41,398 nt of DNA from Patescibacteria group bacterium. GTDB taxonomy: Bacteria > Patescibacteriota > Patescibacteriia > Patescibacteriales > UBA12465. Positions within the stretch are counted from its first letter, which is position 1, and the number at the start of each line of letters is the position of its first letter. The stretch spans positions 1 through 41,398 of the forward strand of contig JAKLGM010000007.1 in the NCBI GenBank assembly GCA_022710685.1. The letters run 5' to 3'. The notes under the pieces were generated by a model. It saw only the letters and a program-made list of their open reading frames with translations. It searched no databases and had not been told where the DNA came from. The translations under genes were made by a program, and so were the position numbers. Of this stretch, positions 26,546 through 41,061 are shown in pieces.

Positions 26546-28663
<2,118 letters not shown>

Positions 28664-31197: not shown

Positions 31198-31284
31198 GGA
31201 GAGTTCGCATAGTGGTCGAGTGCGCTCGCTTGGAAAGCGAGTATACCCTAACCGGTATCGAGGGTTCGAATCCCTCACTCTCCG
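31198..31284 (+). tRNA. tRNA-Ser(GGA)
   Basis: GGAGAGT (31198-31204) pairs with ACTCTCC (31277-31283), discriminator G. Anticodon loop TTGGAAA gives GGA. Long variable arm. CCA is not encoded. It is the last core gene before the AT-rich island, hence a candidate integration landmark. Confidence 0.95.
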
Positions 31285-31312
31285 CAACATCGTGCTAGCA
31301 CGAGGTACTAAG

Positions 31313-31340: not shown

Positions 31341-31449
31341 TGTTTTGTTAAAAATTGACCTTTACTTTTTGGCTATTTTAAGTTATATTTAAAGAGCTAA
31401 ACCGTAATCAAATATTTGTGAAGTCGCTCCTATTTATTGGGCAGCTTTG

Positions 31450-31556
31450 GCTTATTTGCATACAGGAACGGACATACCGACCCTTATGCAAGTAAGCGTC
31501 TTCACGGACACTGATTGCGGTTTAGCGACCGGGTCGGGTGTCCGTTTTTGTTTTTT
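31450..31556 (+). ncRNA. Candidate structured RNA / leader with alternative hairpins
   Basis: Within the 313-nt gene-free gap 31285-31598. A: GCTTATTTGCAT (31450-31461) pairs with ATGCAAGTAAGC (31486-31497). B: AACGGACA-TA-CCGACCC (31467-31483) pairs with GGGTCGG-G-TGTCCGTT (31531-31546). C: ACGGACAC (31504-31511) pairs with GTGTCCGT (31538-31545). B and C compete for the same 3' arm and A overlaps B as a pseudoknot. A T-rich tract (TTTTTGTTTTTT, 31545-31556) follows, so C or B would be a terminator. The PH-domain gene starts 43 nt later. Confidence 0.55.
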
Positions 31557-31598
31557 ATAAATCGGTCCTGACTGATTATAAATTAATAATTTAAAACT

Positions 31599-32045
31599 AT
31601 GGACTATCAAAAAGTCTGGGACAAAGTCCTCAGCAAAGGAGAGGAAGTAAAACACAGCTTCTCTATCGGGGAAAAGTACATAAAATTTAGCCTCATCGTT
31701 TGGGGTATAATTAGCTTGCCTCTATTGTTTGCTTTTGGGGCAGGGGTTGTTGTTTTTTTGATTGCTCTTTTTTATTTCGCATATTATTTAAGAGTAGCCA
31801 ATGTTTACGCCTTTACTAATAAAAGGGTGCTCATTCACCAAGGATGGCTTTCAACTCACACTATTAGTATTGATTATCCGAAAATAACGGATGTCAGGGT
31901 TAGGGAGCCATTCTTTGATAAAGTTCTAACCAAAACTGGAGATATTGCAATTAACACTGCTGGTACAGGTTATACAGAAGTAGTCTTAAGACATGTTGAA
32001 AGGCCTTATGAGATTAAAAAGATTTTAGATGAAATGAAGGATTAA
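31599..32045 (+). CDS. Bacterial PH-domain (DUF304-like) two-TM membrane protein
   Basis: The 148-aa product has two close TM segments (about 29-47 and 50-66), then a bPH2-type domain: YAFTNKRVLIHQGWLSTHTISIDYPKITDVRVREPFFDKVL and GDIAINTAGTG ... VLRHVERPYEIKKIL. These proteins are common near membranes; their role is unknown. It sits downstream of the alternative-hairpin leader, so it may be under transcription attenuation. A terminator follows it. Confidence 0.82.
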   Translation: MDYQKVWDKVLSKGEEVKHSFSIGEKYIKFSLIVWGIISLPLLFAFGAGVVVFLIALFYFAYYLRVANVYAFTNKRVLIHQGWLSTHTISIDYPKITDVRVREPFFDKVLTKTGDIAINTAGTGYTEVVLRHVERPYEIKKILDEMKD

Positions 32046-32366: not shown

Positions 32367-34238
32367 ATGGCTAAAAAAGATTATGCTAAATGGGATCGAT
32401 ACGAATTAATAAAAGAAATTGAACAACTTCGTAAACGAAAAAAATACGGACTCGTTTGGGAAGATAAACCGGAAAATGTAGTTGAGCAATGCAAGACAGA
32501 GCTGCCAGTTTTGCAAGAGATAAAAAGCAAAGAGATAACTACCGACTCTAATAAACCGGTTAATTTATTAATTGAGGGTGACAACTATCACGCCCTTTCA
32601 GTTTTAAACTATACTCACAAGGGTAAAATTGATGTAATTTACATCGATCCACCTTATAATACAGGGGCTAAAGACTGGAAATATAATAATGATTATGTTG
32701 ACGGAGAGGATCCATATAGACATACTAAATGGATTTCTTTTATGAGCCATCGTTTAAATATAGCAAAAAATCTACTTAGTGCTGATGGAATTATTTGTAT
32801 AACAATAGATGATTATGAAATGCCTCGCCTTTGGTTATTAGCGGAGGAAATATTTGGCGAGTTTAATCATCTAGGAACTGTCGCAATAAGGAATAATCCT
32901 AAAGGAAGGATGACAAAGCGGAAAGTGTCATTAGTACATGAATATGCAGTTTTTTTTGGCAAATCACCGAATTCATTTATTAAAAAATTAAGTGTTGACC
33001 CGTCAGAAAAAACGCATAATTACAAACAAGATGAGAACGGGAGTTGGTATTTGCCAGTTAATTTAAGAAAGCAGGGTGTTGATAGTAATGCAGTTAATAA
33101 AAAGGGTAAGTTGTCAGATAGGTATTATCCAATTTATTTAGATAAAAAAACTGGCAGAATAAGTTCAACTAAAAAATTAGATATTGAAATCCTCCCAATT
33201 GATAGTCGTGGCGAAAAAAGAATTTGGAGGCGATCAAAGGACGTAATTAATCAGATGTATGAAAGTGGCGATCTTATCGTTAAACATACAAATAATGATT
33301 ATCAAATATACTTTAAATTTAGAGGTGGTTTAGATGGAAAAATGACACAATCTTTATGGATTGAACCTGAATTTTCAGCAAGTGACTATGGCACAAAAAT
33401 TTTAGACAATATTCTAGGGGAACGGGAATTGTTTCAATATCCAAAAGCTCCAGCTGCAGTCGTACAAGCCATCCAGGCAATGAGCAATAAAAAAGATTGT
33501 ATAGTCTTAGATTTTTTTGCAGGGTCAGGTACAACCGGTCAAGCTGTTTTAGAATTAAATAAAATAGATAAAGGCAGTAGAAGGTTTATAATTTGTACAA
33601 ATAACGAGAACAATATCGCAGAAGAAATTACACATACAAGATTAAAAAATGTAATTAATGGTTATAAATTTTCTGGACAAGATAAATATATTATATTTGA
33701 ACAAAAACTCAGTGAAAAGATTTTAGAGGATATTGATGTTATTTTAAGCGATTTGGAAAAAGTAAAAAATGAAAATAAGGCAAATTATGATAAGCTGGAG
33801 ATAAAAATAGAAGATAGCGTGTTGCGATTATATGGTCTAAAAAAATCTAATGGTAAAAAAGAGGGTCTAGGTGGAAATCTAAAATATTTTAGAACTTCCT
33901 TTGTTCCAGCTGAGCCTACAGATAAAAATAAGATTGCTCTAACTGAAAAAGTTACAGAAATGCTTTGCATAAAAGAAGATACTTTTGATGAAGTAAAGTC
34001 AACTAAACAGTATAAGATTTTTAGGAATAAAAAGCGGTATACTGCTATTATCTTTGATCATCAAGTAATAGACGATTTTAAAAAGGAAATCGTTAAGATA
34101 GATGGTAAGTTTAGCCTTTATATTTTTTCGCTTGGTGATGATACTTTTGAGGAAGAGTTTGAAGATATAAAGAAAAAAATAAAATTATCACCAATACCAG
34201 AGGCAATACTTCGGGTATATCGCAGAATATTTAAATAA
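32367..34238 (+). CDS. mod: Type III restriction-modification methyltransferase (Mod)
   Basis: The 623-aa product is an adenine-specific (N6) beta-class methyltransferase: catalytic DPPYN (94-98) comes before the AdoMet motif LDFFAGSGTTGQAV (about 380-393), the order expected for the beta class. The N-terminal region EGDNYHALSVLNYTHKGKIDVIYI and TDDYEMPRL-like segments match Mod proteins. The target-recognition domain lies between about 150 and 340. It methylates one strand of an asymmetric site and guides Res. Starts 4 nt after the repressor and 12 nt before res. Confidence 0.93.
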   Translation: MAKKDYAKWDRYELIKEIEQLRKRKKYGLVWEDKPENVVEQCKTELPVLQEIKSKEITTDSNKPVNLLIEGDNYHALSVLNYTHKGKIDVIYIDPPYNTGAKDWKYNNDYVDGEDPYRHTKWISFMSHRLNIAKNLLSADGIICITIDDYEMPRLWLLAEEIFGEFNHLGTVAIRNNPKGRMTKRKVSLVHEYAVFFGKSPNSFIKKLSVDPSEKTHNYKQDENGSWYLPVNLRKQGVDSNAVNKKGKLSDRYYPIYLDKKTGRISSTKKLDIEILPIDSRGEKRIWRRSKDVINQMYESGDLIVKHTNNDYQIYFKFRGGLDGKMTQSLWIEPEFSASDYGTKILDNILGERELFQYPKAPAAVVQAIQAMSNKKDCIVLDFFAGSGTTGQAVLELNKIDKGSRRFIICTNNENNIAEEITHTRLKNVINGYKFSGQDKYIIFEQKLSEKILEDIDVILSDLEKVKNENKANYDKLEIKIEDSVLRLYGLKKSNGKKEGLGGNLKYFRTSFVPAEPTDKNKIALTEKVTEMLCIKEDTFDEVKSTKQYKIFRNKKRYTAIIFDHQVIDDFKKEIVKIDGKFSLYIFSLGDDTFEEEFEDIKKKIKLSPIPEAILRVYRRIFK

Positions 34239-34250
34239 AAGGGAAAAAAT

Positions 34251-36464
34251 ATGCAATTAAAAGACTATCAAAACGTAGCTGTTAGAAAACTTCTCACAAG
34301 AAGTAAGGAATTATTAATCCAAGGTGGCAATAAGAAAGTTATTTTTAAAGCACCAACTGGTTCCGGCAAAACTATAATGACGGCAGAATTTTTAAAACAA
34401 CTGATCAATGACAGAGAAATTAAAGAACCTCTCTCATTTATTTGGACCGCTCCAAGAAAATTACATACGCAAAGTAAGGAGAAATTGGAAAAATATTATG
34501 AAGATACAAGAGCTTTGGAGTGTTCAAATTTTGAAGATTTAACAGATAAACTAATAAATGAAAATGAAATTTTGTTTTTAAATTGGGAAAGTATAAATAA
34601 AAAAGATAAAAACACAATAGTTAAAGAAAACGAAAAAGAATTTTATCTTAGTAAAATTGTTGAAAATACCAAAGAAGATGGGCGAGAAATCATTTTAATT
34701 ATTGATGAAAGTCATCACCATGCAACGAGTGAAATTTCACAAGATCTAATTTCTGATATTGCTCCCAGGCTTACAATTGAGGTTTCTGCCACACCTATTA
34801 TTTCTAGTCCAGACGAGATTGTTTCCGTGCCATTGGAAGATGTAAAGTTGGAAGGCATGATCAAAAAATCTGTTATTCTTAACCAAAATTTTAAAAATGT
34901 TTTGTCTGGAGACAGTTTAAAAACAACTCTTGCTGATGGGACGGATGCCATGGTATTGGAAGAAGGTATAAAAAAAAGAGCGGAAATTGCAAAAGCATAC
35001 AAAGACGCCGGGATTGATATAAATCCACTTTTACTGATTCAATTGCCTGACAGAAAAACACAAGCAGAGGATCAAGTTAAAAATGATGTTGAGCGTATTT
35101 TGAAAGATAAATATGGAATGACTACAGAGAATGGCAGACTAGCTATTTATCTATCAGAAGAAAAAGAGAACTTAAATAATATTGCAAAAAATAACCACGA
35201 AACTGAAGTTTTAATTTTTAAACAAGCAATCGCTTTAGGTTGGGACTGCCCTCGCGCTCAAGTTTTAGTTTTATTTAGAGACTGGAAAAGTCTCGCATTT
35301 TCGGTTCAAACAGTTGGCAGAATTATGCGTATGCCAGAACCTGATAATGGGCACTATAAACAGGAGATTTTAAATCATGGTTTTGTGTTTACTAACCTGG
35401 CTGATATTGAGATAAGGGAAGATGTTGCGAGAAATTATGTAACGATTTATACCAGCAAAAGAATTGAAAATTATCAGCCAATTAAACTTGAATCGGTGTA
35501 TCGTTTGCGACAAAGAGAAAAAACTCGTTTAAGTCCGAAGTTTCTTAATATTTTTTTAGATGAGGCTGTAAGATATGATCTAGAAAAGAAGATTGAAACT
35601 AAAGGACAAAAAATTGAACTATCTTTAATTTCTGACTATGAAGCAGATGGAGTTGATAAATTAACAAATGCAGAAATTAAGGGTGAGGCAAAGATTAATA
35701 CTGAAAATGAAACAGATTTACAAAAACTTTATGATTTCTTTGTAAAAAATAATCTCTCACCTTTTTATCCGGAAGATCGTTCAATCGGTAGAATGAAAGA
35801 AGCAATTTATTATTTTTTTAGAATGCGTTTTGATATGGAATACACAAATCGCTTTACTGAGATTATAAATATTGTACTAAGCTCTAAAAACAGCCAACAT
35901 TTTTGTAATGTTATTGATATTGCAAAGGAAAAATACATTACCGAAACTCAAAAACGAGAAGATGAATTGAAAGAAACAGCCGATTGGGAATTACCAGAAA
36001 TTTTGAATTATGGCGGGAATTTTACAGAATTTAAAGTTAAATTTTCAGCGTTAAAACCTTTTTATTACGACAATAAATGGAAAACGGAGGAATCATTTAT
36101 TAAATTTCTTGAAAAATCTAGTCAAATTGAATGGTGGTTTAAGAATGGCGATAGAGATGCTACATTTTTTGCCTTGCCCTATGTTGAAAATAATGAAAGG
36201 AAACCATTCTATGTTGATTTTATTGTGAAATATAAAAATGGTAAAATAGGTTTGTTCGATACGAAAAGCGGAAACACTATTAAAGATGCACGAGAAAAGA
36301 GTGATGGTTTACAAGAATATTTGAAAAAACATAAAAATCTTATAGGTGGGATCGTGACAAATACAAATTCTAAAGATTTTTCTGGTCGTTGGGTGTTTTA
36401 TAAAGGACGAGGAGACAGTCTTTATCCCGACGATTTCTCTAATTGGGAATTGTTAGAAATATAA
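34251..36464 (+). CDS. res: Type III restriction endonuclease (Res)
   Basis: The 737-aa product has an SF2 helicase core: Walker A APTGSGKT (34-41), the Walker B form DESH (about 152-155), SATPI (motif III), and ALGWDCPRAQVLVLFRDWKSLAFSVQTVGRIMRMPEP (motifs V and VI). The C-terminal nuclease is visible as D-FIVKYKNGKIGLF-DTK (about 656-672), a PD-(D/E)xK site. It cuts DNA after ATP-dependent translocation between two head-to-head sites. Intact, so the RM system is likely functional. Confidence 0.92.
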   Translation: MQLKDYQNVAVRKLLTRSKELLIQGGNKKVIFKAPTGSGKTIMTAEFLKQLINDREIKEPLSFIWTAPRKLHTQSKEKLEKYYEDTRALECSNFEDLTDKLINENEILFLNWESINKKDKNTIVKENEKEFYLSKIVENTKEDGREIILIIDESHHHATSEISQDLISDIAPRLTIEVSATPIISSPDEIVSVPLEDVKLEGMIKKSVILNQNFKNVLSGDSLKTTLADGTDAMVLEEGIKKRAEIAKAYKDAGIDINPLLLIQLPDRKTQAEDQVKNDVERILKDKYGMTTENGRLAIYLSEEKENLNNIAKNNHETEVLIFKQAIALGWDCPRAQVLVLFRDWKSLAFSVQTVGRIMRMPEPDNGHYKQEILNHGFVFTNLADIEIREDVARNYVTIYTSKRIENYQPIKLESVYRLRQREKTRLSPKFLNIFLDEAVRYDLEKKIETKGQKIELSLISDYEADGVDKLTNAEIKGEAKINTENETDLQKLYDFFVKNNLSPFYPEDRSIGRMKEAIYYFFRMRFDMEYTNRFTEIINIVLSSKNSQHFCNVIDIAKEKYITETQKREDELKETADWELPEILNYGGNFTEFKVKFSALKPFYYDNKWKTEESFIKFLEKSSQIEWWFKNGDRDATFFALPYVENNERKPFYVDFIVKYKNGKIGLFDTKSGNTIKDAREKSDGLQEYLKKHKNLIGGIVTNTNSKDFSGRWVFYKGRGDSLYPDDFSNWELLEI

Positions 36465-37765: not shown

Positions 37766-39049
37766 TTATCTAATTTCAACAATTTTATTCTTTAACAAAA
37801 TCTCCCCATTTAAACAAGTAAGTAATTCTCGCTTTTCTTGATCATCACCCTCTTTTAATAAAAATTTAATGTAGTTTTTAACATCGACGTCGCTGACGTC
37901 GATGTTTTGGTTTTTGCCAGTTGCCATCATTTGAAATTTTTTAAATCTTTTAATCTCTCCCTCAATCTTACTTTGAACAGACAATTTTTTAAAATCTAAT
38001 TTATCAATCTGTTTTTGTAATTGTTTAATTAAATCTTCCTCACTGATATAGCCTGATTTACAATTTTTATCTTTCGCTTTGGTGCAACCATAATAAATAT
38101 GACGGTTATAGCCGCCATTTTTTAATTTCTTAAATTTTTCGGTCGCTGATATTCCTGAACCGCATAAACCGCAGGTCATTATTTTAGTAAAGGCGAATTC
38201 AATATTTTCTCGTCTAACCAATTGGGAATTCTTCATTTGATCTTGAACTAAATCAAATAATTCCTTAGTTATCAGTGGTTCATGTTTTCCTTGATACCAA
38301 TTGCCACTGCCTCGTGGATATTCAAATGGGCCATAATAGAAGGTATTTTCTAATAGGCGGTAAATATTACCTAAACTCAAATGCTTTTTCCCTAGTGCCG
38401 TTCTAAAATTTAAGTCAAATCTTAACCAGTTGTATAGTTTTCTGCCAGACCATTTTTCATAAGCGACTTTTTCAAACATCTGTCTGATAACATGGCCTCT
38501 GTCAGGATCGATTAAACATTGTCCTTTGTGGTCAACTTGTTTTTCTTTGAAGTATCCTGTCGGCGGGCAAGTCGGCCATAAACCTTTTTCACATCTGGCT
38601 CTTAAACCCCTTTTTACGTTTATACCTCTGTTGTCATTTTCCAGTTTGGCTTGAGAGCATAAAATCATAAGTAAAAACTTTTCGTTTGGGGAATTGCTAA
38701 ATGTTTGACCGAAGGTGCGAATACTCATTAATTTTTTCTCATCCATTAAATCAACTAATGATCCTAAGTCGCCAGCATTTCTTGAAAGCCTATCAGGTGC
38801 CCAGGTTAAAATGGCGTTAAATTTTTCTTCGGCTATGTCTTTTAATAATTCCTTAAAGATAGGGCGATTGCCAGAATCTTTAGCAGACTTTGATTCTCGT
38901 CTAATATCGACGATTTCTAAATTTTCCCGCTCAGCGATTTGAAGCATTTCCTTAACCTGTGAATCAATTGATTGAACTTGTCGTTCGTCTGATTCAGTAC
39001 TTTTTCTAGCGTAAAGGCAATACTTTAGCTCAGTTTCTAATGGAGGCAT
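37766..39049 (-). CDS. Large serine recombinase (site-specific integrase)
   Basis: The 427-aa product has an N-terminal resolvase domain with YARKSTE (catalytic Ser17) and TWAPDRLSRNAGDLGSLVD (86-100, with the conserved DRLSR arginines), then a Recombinase domain (WPTCPPTGYFKEK, RHVIRQMFEKVAYEKWSGRKLYNWL), a four-cysteine zinc ribbon (CGLCG ... YYGCTKAKDKNCKSG), and a terminal coiled-coil-like basic stretch. It catalyses integration and excision of the element. Its start codon lies in the left arm of a 10-bp inverted repeat and a perfect GC-rich hairpin is inside its 3' coding part. Confidence 0.93.
   Translation of the reverse strand: MPPLETELKYCLYARKSTESDERQVQSIDSQVKEMLQIAERENLEIVDIRRESKSAKDSGNRPIFKELLKDIAEEKFNAILTWAPDRLSRNAGDLGSLVDLMDEKKLMSIRTFGQTFSNSPNEKFLLMILCSQAKLENDNRGINVKRGLRARCEKGLWPTCPPTGYFKEKQVDHKGQCLIDPDRGHVIRQMFEKVAYEKWSGRKLYNWLRFDLNFRTALGKKHLSLGNIYRLLENTFYYGPFEYPRGSGNWYQGKHEPLITKELFDLVQDQMKNSQLVRRENIEFAFTKIMTCGLCGSGISATEKFKKLKNGGYNRHIYYGCTKAKDKNCKSGYISEEDLIKQLQKQIDKLDFKKLSVQSKIEGEIKRFKKFQMMATGKNQNIDVSDVDVKNYIKFLLKEGDDQEKRELLTCLNGEILLKNKIVEIR
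37880..37906 (+). repeat. Perfect 12-bp hairpin inside the recombinase gene
   Basis: AACATCGACGTC (37880-37891) and GACGTCGATGTT (37895-37906) with a 3-nt loop, then TTTTGGTTTTT on the + strand. It may end transcripts of the + strand cargo operon that converges on the recombinase gene. Confidence 0.7.
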
Positions 39050-39173: not shown

Positions 39174-40646
39174 TTACCAATATATAGTATAAATTCTAGG
39201 TGGATTTGGGCGTTTATCCAACAAGCTGTGAGCTAAATTAACAAAAGCGTCAGCCAGGTCATCATGCTTTTCAACTCCAAAATGAACTATTTGTTGAATT
39301 AACTCTTCAGCTCCTTTTCTTGGAAATAGTATTTGTCCGTTTTTAATCATATTAGCAGTTAAGACAAGTCGGGTTCGTTTATCTTGGCTTCCTGGGTGTG
39401 TGGTCATAACATTATTAACCCCCTCAACTTTTAATTGTTGGGGAAGAGCTTTTTGATAAGCCACATCTTCCACAACCAATCTGACGAGATCATAATCTTT
39501 TTTATAACTTTCATACATCACTTTGCAGGTATCGATGGTTTCGGGGAAATTAAGACGTCTGTTGATTATCTTGGGTAAAATATAAATGTTATACCCTGTT
39601 TTAGTTTCAAATAGTAAGCCGGGAACCATAGCCGTATAATCAGCGACAGAACTTTGCGAAATAGCAGGATCAATGCCAATTCTAACTTCAAGATGTGATT
39701 TATATCCGCCATACATATTCATCCTTTCTGGAATTTCATCGTAATAATTAATCCACTCAGGATAAATAGCTTGATCATCACTGGGAACAATATTTAACAG
39801 ATATTCTTGTTGCCAAGTAATTTCATTTCCGACTTTTTTTCGCTCTGCTTCAATATCTTTATCGGTTGGATATTTGCCAGGCCATAAGCAAATACCTTTT
39901 TTATTGATTAAGGGGTAGAAAAGGAAATTGCCATCAATAATTTCTTTTTCCTTTTCTTCTTTTAATCTCATAAGCAAAGAATCTTCATGTAAGAGGTTGC
40001 CCACTATAACCAATCTTGTGTCCTTATCACCAGCAGGGATTACTTCGCCTTTAAGCCATTGATAGGTTTTATTGCGACCATCTCTGGTTTTGGTTGAGCT
40101 GATATCTTCGACGTCATCGCAGATTATTAAATCTGGTCGATTTTCGTAATGCCTAATACCTCTGATACTTTGATCAACAGAAGCGACGGTAATTCTAGCA
40201 TCGGTATTTGAGAAAACGATTGATTGGGCACCCCATTCATCGCTATTTTCCCTAAACGGACCAAGGTCTTTTTTAAGCAAGTCATTATCTTCTAATTCTC
40301 GACGTAAATTCATCATATGCTGTTTAGCTTGAGCTTGAGTTTGGCAGAAGATAACAACGAATTTCTTTTGCTGTTTACCAAGAATTGCCCAGATTGGATA
40401 AGCGGCGGTAATAATAGTTGATTTGCCTGAGCCTCTAAATGCCACCACAAACAGATTTTCTTTGTGGCTGGATTCAATTAAAGAAATTATGTTTTTCTGA
40501 AAATCTGCCGTTTCATACTTAACATAATGAGCGTAATAAAAGTGGAAGAAATAGGAAAAACTTTCTCTAGTTATCGCCGTTCTTATCTTCTTGTCTTGGG
40601 TCATCTGCTCCACCATTTCCTGGGGAATCATTTTGTTTACCATCAT
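39174..40646 (-). CDS. terL: Phage terminase large subunit (TerL)
   Basis: The 490-aa product has the packaging ATPase with FRGSGKST (70-77, Walker A), LIICDDVED (173-181, Walker B plus catalytic acid), and a C-terminal RNase H-like nuclease with RIGIDPAIS and the terminal KHDDLADAFVNLAHSL. It drives DNA into capsids and cuts concatemers. Other ATGs downstream (for example MTQDKK) are possible starts. It overlaps terS by up to 80 nt, as often in phages. Confidence 0.93.
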   Translation of the reverse strand: MMVNKMIPQEMVEQMTQDKKIRTAITRESFSYFFHFYYAHYVKYETADFQKNIISLIESSHKENLFVVAFRGSGKSTIITAAYPIWAILGKQQKKFVVIFCQTQAQAKQHMMNLRRELEDNDLLKKDLGPFRENSDEWGAQSIVFSNTDARITVASVDQSIRGIRHYENRPDLIICDDVEDISSTKTRDGRNKTYQWLKGEVIPAGDKDTRLVIVGNLLHEDSLLMRLKEEKEKEIIDGNFLFYPLINKKGICLWPGKYPTDKDIEAERKKVGNEITWQQEYLLNIVPSDDQAIYPEWINYYDEIPERMNMYGGYKSHLEVRIGIDPAISQSSVADYTAMVPGLLFETKTGYNIYILPKIINRRLNFPETIDTCKVMYESYKKDYDLVRLVVEDVAYQKALPQQLKVEGVNNVMTTHPGSQDKRTRLVLTANMIKNGQILFPRKGAEELIQQIVHFGVEKHDDLADAFVNLAHSLLDKRPNPPRIYTIYW

Positions 40647-41061
40647 ATGTGTTTTTATTATTAATTATTAATTGCTCGTCGGCTGGCAATAGTTTAGCCA
40701 GTTTTAAAGCGTGTTTTACTACTTCTGCCTGAGCAGGAGTTAACTCGTCGGTATCTTCCGTTTTGGAAGTTACCTCAATCTTATCTTTAAACCTCGGATT
40801 ACGATGCCTAAGCCAAAAGCTGATTGCTGACCAATTTTTTTCTTTAATCATTGTTAAGAGTTGGCTTTCGCTCATATCATTTACTAGAGCTTCGCCTTCA
40901 GCCAAAGCTTCATCCATCACTTTGGAAAATTCTTTATCTTCTCGTTTCCAGCGATAAACGCTATTGCGAGATATACCTGATTTTTCACAAGCGACTAAAA
41001 CGATTGGTACTTTTTTAAGCTCATTAAAGAAAGCTTCTTGCAATCGGCTTTTCTTAGACAT
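40567..41061 (-). CDS. terS: Phage terminase small subunit (TerS)
   Basis: The 164-aa product has an N-terminal helix-turn-helix (VACEKSGISRNSVYRWKREDKEF), as used to bind the packaging site, a helical oligomerisation region (MDEALAEGEALVNDMSESQLLTMIKEKNWSAISFWLRHRNPRFKDK) and an acidic Gly/Asn/Asp-rich C-terminal tail that contacts TerL in related systems. It overlaps the methyltransferase gene by 8 nt and terL by about 80 nt. Confidence 0.85.
   Translation of the reverse strand: MSKKSRLQEAFFNELKKVPIVLVACEKSGISRNSVYRWKREDKEFSKVMDEALAEGEALVNDMSESQLLTMIKEKNWSAISFWLRHRNPRFKDKIEVTSKTEDTDELTPAQAEVVKHALKLAKLLPADEQLIINNKNTYDGKQNDSPGNGGADDPRQEDKNGDN

Follow-up and report, generated by a model that had tools for sequence, protein, structure and literature searches.

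IS110 elements encode a structured RNA, the bridge RNA, upstream of their recombinase gene. Among phage RNAs, IsrK of the Salmonella prophage Gifsy-1 is a leader with its own promoter and terminator, from which read-through yields the mRNA of a downstream phage gene (PMC4825925), and in RCd22-abiF of the Clostridioides difficile phage phi027 a non-coding RNA occupies the 5' untranslated region (UTR), with a sigma-A promoter, a terminator just before the coding gene and limited read-through (PMC12373285). Here we describe a structured RNA that precedes a gene for a bPH2-domain membrane protein in a Patescibacteria group bacterium (GCA_022710685.1, contig JAKLGM010000007.1, positions 1 to 41,398, forward strand; this whole stretch of 41,398 nt is the window). 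The complete element, at 31361-31556, consists of a promoter, an RNA of ~160 nt with the helices P1, P2, P3 and P4, a pseudoknot and a U tract. We read it, at a probability of roughly 0.55, as a promoter followed by the structured 5' leader for a cargo gene in a tRNA-integrated, serine-recombinase-encoding phage-like element, and as one case of a family-wide leader with a pseudoknot/U-tract terminator. An original prediction, made from the letters of the window, had seen at 31450-31556 mutually exclusive hairpins of a candidate riboswitch, attenuator or small RNA; the structure is real, but this extent covers its 3' half only, and the element begins ~55-90 nt further 5'.

Results

A nested fold supported by covariation

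The segment 31430-31580 folds at -53.5 kcal/mol, against -35.8 +/- 3.6 kcal/mol in dinucleotide shuffles (z -5.0; 0/200), which agrees with the earlier claim that this is not random sequence. About 70 relatives were found across Patescibacteria, and the nested minimum-energy fold of the homologues examined is P1[P2[P3,P4]], in which the 3' arm in front of the U tract is left nearly free for the loop of P4 (Table 1). P4 had been recognized before as a stem with one G-U pair whose loop holds the first of two arms; that description stands, with 13 bp in place of the 12 then counted.

In a first alignment of 16 sequences, two-sided changes occur at 20 of 32 pairs (0/500 shuffles). When 38 sequences are aligned, two-sided compensatory changes are seen at all 32 nested pairs (0/500 shuffles), with 95.3% of cells paired and a covariation score of 0.706, against 0.209 in shuffled alignments and at most 0.156 with the partners slid. 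Each conserved helix contributes: 13/13 modelled pairs of P1 vary on both sides (96.8% of cells paired), as do 7/7 in P2 (93%) and 12/12 in P4 (95%). It is virtually certain that a conserved structured RNA exists here. The alignment of 38 sequences had been fitted to the structure, and the pseudoknot was part of none of the models; the pseudoknot therefore provides an independent test.

A distant loop pairs with the 3' arm

In the window, ACGGACA occurs twice (31468-31474 and 31504-31510), and the 3' arm GGTCGGGTGTCCGT (31532-31545), which runs into TTTTTGTTTTTT, is complementary to either copy, as had been noticed. The first copy belongs to arm 1 in the P4 loop, preceded by a conserved purine-rich CAGGA, and its pairing with the 3' arm forms the pseudoknot; the second belongs to arm 2, whose pairing with the same 3' arm forms a local hairpin B.

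The P4 loops and 3' arms are wholly different between subfamilies, yet each fits its own partner (loop/arm CGGACAUNCCGACC/GGUCGGGUGUCCG, CGGGCAUCUGAC/GUCAGGUGUCCG and GGGCAGUCCUG/CAGGGCUGUCC). This preference for the own partner was reached by 1 of 5040 permutations with seven hand-picked arm types and by 0 of 100,000 with eleven types chosen automatically. A distant duplex of P4 loop and 3' arm at or below -15 kcal/mol is present in 69 of 70 members and in 2.7% of shuffles, a control that is slightly lenient given that the end of the 3' arm was picked knowing the duplex. The pseudoknot to which the original prediction had likened its interleaved hairpins is thus borne out. By comparison, 19/70 members and 0/23 leaders of recombinase genes have a strong local partner for the 3' arm; the window has two 5' arms that could compete for a single 3' arm, but such competition does not define the family. 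As judged by predicted pairing, the pseudoknot is nearly universal and hairpin B is limited to a minority of members. The universal parts are P1, P2, P4, the pseudoknot, a U-rich stretch and a nearby start codon.

Hairpin B bears on a riboswitch-like reading, in which the pseudoknot, with P1, would be an antiterminator, hairpin B with a further hairpin, P5, would be the terminator, and a ligand or protein would tip the balance. P1 and P5 use common bases and are mutually exclusive, P5 is nested in hairpin B, and both helices covary: for P5, 76 of 80 cells are paired over 16 members of the main clade, against 67 when shuffled (0/2000). Arms 1 and 2 both fit the 3' arm, two alternative folds of the 31450-31556 piece are almost equal (-47.1 and -46.9), and within the main clade the P4 loop conserves its purine-rich part. 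The covariation of P1 versus P5/hairpin B is seen in that clade only. However, most subfamilies and all recombinase leaders have no hairpin B/P5, though their U-rich stretch stays. In the full RNA, moreover, folds containing P1 beat those free of it in 26 of the 26 homologues scored, usually by 5-15 kcal/mol, the gap being near zero in locus L009 alone and small in L004. The downstream genes do not point to a metabolite that a riboswitch might bind. We consider such a switch unlikely and retain the pseudoknot beside the U tract as the candidate terminator.

Table 1. Positions in the window of the leader RNA, its parts and the neighbouring genes.
Feature	Positions	Strand	Remarks
tRNA-Ser (GGA)	31198-31285	+	
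Promoter, sigma-70-type	31361-31389	+	-35 TTTACT (31361-31366), 17-nt spacer, -10 TATATT (31384-31389)
Leader RNA	31393-31557	+	matched by covariance model (R1/R3); predicted transcription start ~31396
P1 5' strand GCTAAACCGTAATCA	31396-31410	+	pairs with 31512-31526
P2 5' strand TTTGTGAAG	31415-31423	+	pairs with 31500-31508
P3 hairpin	31425-31445	+	variable in sequence and length; absent from many recombinase leaders
P4 5' strand (hairpin A of the original prediction)	31450-31462	+	pairs with 31485-31497
Arm 1 ACGGACATACCGACCC, in P4 loop	31468-31483	+	pseudoknot 5' strand; pairs with 31531-31545
P4 3' strand	31485-31497	+	pairs with 31450-31462
P2 3' strand CTTCACGGA	31500-31508	+	pairs with 31415-31423
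Arm 2 ACGGACAC	31504-31511	+	alternative partner of 3' arm (hairpin B)
P1 3' strand TGATTGCGGTTTAGC	31512-31526	+	pairs with 31396-31410
P5 hairpin CGGTT-TAGC-GACCG	31518-31531	+	excludes P1; limited to main clade and one divergent member
3' arm GGGTCGGGTGTCCGT	31531-31545	+	3' strand of pseudoknot and of hairpin B
U tract TTTTTGTTTTTT	31545-31556	+	seen in the sequence
bPH2-domain membrane protein, led by the RNA	31599-32045	+	PF03703 at 1e-12
Cargo: type III restriction-modification, Mod 32367-34238 and Res 34251-36464	32367-36464	+	PF01555, PF04851
Large serine recombinase of the element	37766-39049	-	PF00239, PF07508, PF13408
Terminase-like large subunit 39174-40646 and small-subunit-like helix-turn-helix (HTH) protein 40567-41061	39174-41061	-	PF17289; PF13022 below its cut-off

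Promoter in front, start codon behind

The flanks of the RNA, which lie outside the covariance models, were tested in 70 members. A -10-like box stands at a fixed offset of -9 from the start of the RNA and a -35-like box at -32; a match of at least 5/6 to TATAAT near -9 is present in 47 of 70 members, against 10/70 in a control stretch. These fixed offsets place the expected transcript start at the 5' strand of P1. At the other end, the eight nucleotides past the 3' arm hold on average ~6 T across the family, and in 63/70 members an open reading frame (ORF) of at least 40 codons begins no more than 60 nt past the 3' arm (68/70 at up to 100 nt), whereas random positions have an ORF start within 60 nt in 14-18% of cases. 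In the window, 43 nt separate the U tract from the start codon of the bPH2 gene. A conserved structured RNA thus lies between a predicted promoter and an ORF start, and it is very probable, on this sequence evidence, that it acts in cis as a leader.

The same layout could serve a trans-acting RNA: promoter and terminator would give a discrete, stable product of ~160 nt, antisense, protein-binding or antitoxin-like in the manner of IsrK, P4 CI and type III systems, with the downstream gene merely sharing its promoter, and phages offer precedents in IsrK (PMC4825925) and the AbiF RNA RCd22 (PMC12373285). No second target of the 3' arm rises above background in the window's own genome, however; the arms differ between the two copies carried by one element, and the downstream proteins are mutually unrelated, with no known toxin among those scanned. 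A role in trans is accordingly quite unlikely in our estimate, and the cis-acting leader remains the preferred reading.

Genes led by the RNA and their mobile-element context

The gene behind the RNA encodes a serine recombinase in 23 of 70 members, its start codon being 9-33 nt away. The other 47 precede different genes or, in two cases, no ORF that was called; the genes concerned include those for small membrane proteins, zinc-ribbon, bPH2 and tRNA_anti-like (PF12869) proteins, a type III Mod in L086 and, judged by sequence, a C5-methyltransferase in L137. A lack of homologues with compensatory changes had been named as something that would refute the original prediction; such homologues do exist. 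Their downstream genes are mostly not bPH2. A bPH2 homologue also follows the RNA in L009 and L097; in L097 (G045 C4), it seems to carry ATA in place of ATG, possibly a sign of element decay.

Six loci (L061, L099, L102, L107, L148 and L162) contain two copies of the RNA, one before the recombinase gene and one before a cargo gene, and such paired copies within one element carry different arm sequences. Among 30 loci of the order with a PF07508 recombinase, eight have a leader directly before the recombinase by the model, and three more look by eye near-identical to one of these eight. Regions of 6-20 kb around the RNA contain a serine recombinase in 26 of 38 cases and any recombinase, terminase or ParB-like marker in 28 of 38, and these neighbourhoods are phage-like or rich in defence genes, including restriction-modification genes. 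Recombinase loci, L109 and L092 among them, often have a small ORF of ~50-60 codons directly before the leader or before the recombinase gene. In L096 (G010 C1 ~148,000-151,000), a CD-NTase-like and a patatin-like phospholipase gene, judged by sequence, form an apparent pair of a cyclic-oligonucleotide-based antiphage signalling system (CBASS); this CBASS-like pair, along with a type I restriction system, directly adjoins the leader RNA on its upstream side and marks a defence hotspot within a patescibacterial phage-like element.

In the window, the RNA occupies a gene-free gap before a PH-domain membrane gene at a mobile region, as originally described: the PF03703 gene follows, a tRNA-Ser gene lies on the 5' side, and phage-type genes adjoin. 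From the tRNA-Ser gene onward come the leader RNA and the genes for bPH2, an HTH protein, type III restriction-modification, the serine recombinase and the terminase-like proteins. No leader RNA match is found for the window's own serine recombinase gene, in contrast to many relatives. A tRNA-Val called by ARAGORN at 27176-27244 falls inside an NAD-dependent DNA ligase gene and is likely a false positive.

A tRNA-Ser gene stands immediately upstream of the RNA in L001, L005, L008 and L009 (at ~110-170 nt for L005, L008 and L009), and this recurrence makes an attachment-site neighbourhood probable. With many loci near tRNA-Ser or beside a divergent recombinase gene, the palindromes themselves could be conceived as a DNA element that serves the recombinase as an attachment or regulatory site. 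This reading is highly improbable, and the idea of an attachment site was dropped, as the covariation is of RNA type and includes G-U pairs, the promoter spacing is fixed, and copies stand at cargo genes far from the recombinase.

Extent of the family

A second copy, 80% identical, is present on another contig (C6) of the window's own genome, and blastn retrieved further copies over most of the length in relatives. Covariance models R1, R2 and R3 were built successively. At E <= 0.01, R1 matches 18 of 111 genomes of the order, a few of the matches being weak or due to chance (L042 and L043 look like chance matches); at E <= 1e-5, R3 has matches in 29 of the 381 genomes sampled from the class and in 13 of the 380 sampled from the phylum. 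Named contigs with the RNA belong to Candidatus Falkowbacteria, which NCBI places within the Patescibacteria group, to Komeilibacteria and to other Parcubacteria/Patescibacteria group bacteria. By these model matches, the putative leader family is Patescibacteria-wide and stands before both recombinase and cargo genes of such elements. Its spread is patchy: in the R1 search, the RNA is absent from both other genomes of the same genus.

Outside Patescibacteria, the collections searched gave no sequence relative apart from two contigs with apparently wrong labels (L057 and L063). Labelled Tepidanaerobacteraceae and Planctomycetota, they carry main-clade copies with Falkowbacteria-like neighbours and have probably been assigned to the wrong bin or label; G007, to which L063 corresponds, is itself placed in the window's own family. 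A pattern search of IMG/VR returned 0 matches with a strict pattern and chance matches only with looser ones, and blastn found no match in phage records. The RNA had been taken for undescribed, and with Rfam at gathering and permissive thresholds the window yields its tRNA only (best chance matches at E 0.5-6) and ten member loci yield nothing; searches of the open-licence literature likewise turned up no such RNA for Patescibacteria or before serine recombinases. In G052 (C2:107120-107145; L098/L024), the first gene of an operon has a full leader, and a lone 3' arm with a U tract stands directly before the second; this may be a copy in decay or a second target, and the other loci examined show no repeat of it.

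Discussion

Proposed mechanism

Based on the above features, we propose that the RNA probably belongs to a new family of cis-acting leaders that regulate mobile-element genes through premature termination at the pseudoknot and U tract. As RNA polymerase advances, P1, P2 and P4 would form and present the P4 loop, with which the emerging 3' arm would pair to give a helix of ~10-14 bp beside the U tract. Helix and U tract together would work as an intrinsic terminator that draws its 5' half from the loop of a hairpin formed before it, and most transcripts would then end as an RNA of ~160 nt. If the P4 loop were occupied, or the formation of P4 or P1 prevented, by a protein, an RNA, a ligand or stress, the polymerase would read into the gene. 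In those recombinase leaders that have a short U tract and a start codon 9-33 nt away, the helix could block translation instead, and in the main clade the local hairpin B/P5 might offer another route to termination. We hold it to be an even bet that the pseudoknot causes termination.

Several points weigh against this proposal. The U tracts of some recombinase leaders are weak, for example TTTAGTTA, from which the start codon is 16 nt distant, so the mechanism cannot be termination alone; by analogy with RNA classes that have both expression platforms, this suggests that the same helix blocks translation in such leaders. A 13-bp helix within a loop of ~22 nt is strained, so P4 may have to open. 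Our analysis identified neither a signal nor an antiterminated structure, and members that have no recombinase nearby may be remnants.

A wider reading, which we put forward tentatively and hold to be possible rather than probable, is a phylum-wide RNA control of Patescibacteria mobile elements, with one architecture and element-specific loop/arm codes, in which a distant-loop terminator would set the expression of integrase and accessory or defence genes and the decision between lysogeny and excision. To our knowledge, almost nothing is known about gene regulation in Patescibacteria or the control of their prophages, and a strongly covarying RNA class before serine recombinases and phage cargo genes is a concrete, testable handle. 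The finding would tie the expression of recombinase and cargo together within one element and suggests an unusual terminator, composed of a loop and a 3' arm far from it; a new RNA family entry can be made directly from the covariance models and the list of members.

Comparison with known systems

Three known classes were considered and rejected. A bridge RNA needs an IS110 DEDD recombinase; that of the window belongs to the Resolvase/Recombinase family, and many copies lead other genes. A type III toxin-antitoxin system does not fit, as the RNA is not a repeat array and the downstream genes scanned encode bPH2, zinc-ribbon or tRNA_anti-like proteins or have no Pfam assignment, the others being serine recombinases. 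A T-box leader is not indicated either, there being no Rfam T-box match despite the nearby tRNA-Ser.

The likenesses are nevertheless instructive. As with the IS110 bridge RNA, a structured RNA of similar length lies upstream of a recombinase gene, but the recombinases here are serine recombinases, non-recombinase genes are also led, and the loop fits the RNA's own 3' arm. Terminator-type riboswitches and attenuators share the position as an ORF leader, the conserved fold, the 3' strand beside a U tract and the near start codon; unlike theirs, the U-tract helix is a predicted pseudoknot with a distant hairpin loop, and the link is to mobile elements, not metabolism. RCd22-abiF likewise has a phage RNA in a 5' UTR between promoter and coding gene, with a terminator, predicted in our case, before the gene; RCd22, however, is the antitoxin of the encoded protein, whereas the proteins downstream of our RNA are unrelated to one another. 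With IsrK and the related P4 CI/SeqA RNAs it has in common a prophage leader with its own promoter and terminator (both predicted here) and an RNA structure that would decide expression; IsrK, however, targets its own long form in trans, whereas our search for a trans target found none, and the two are likened by function, not architecture. Claiming membership of no described class, we suggest by analogy that the nearest functional counterparts of this RNA would be prophage leaders that have an early terminator, IsrK and the AbiF RNA among them.
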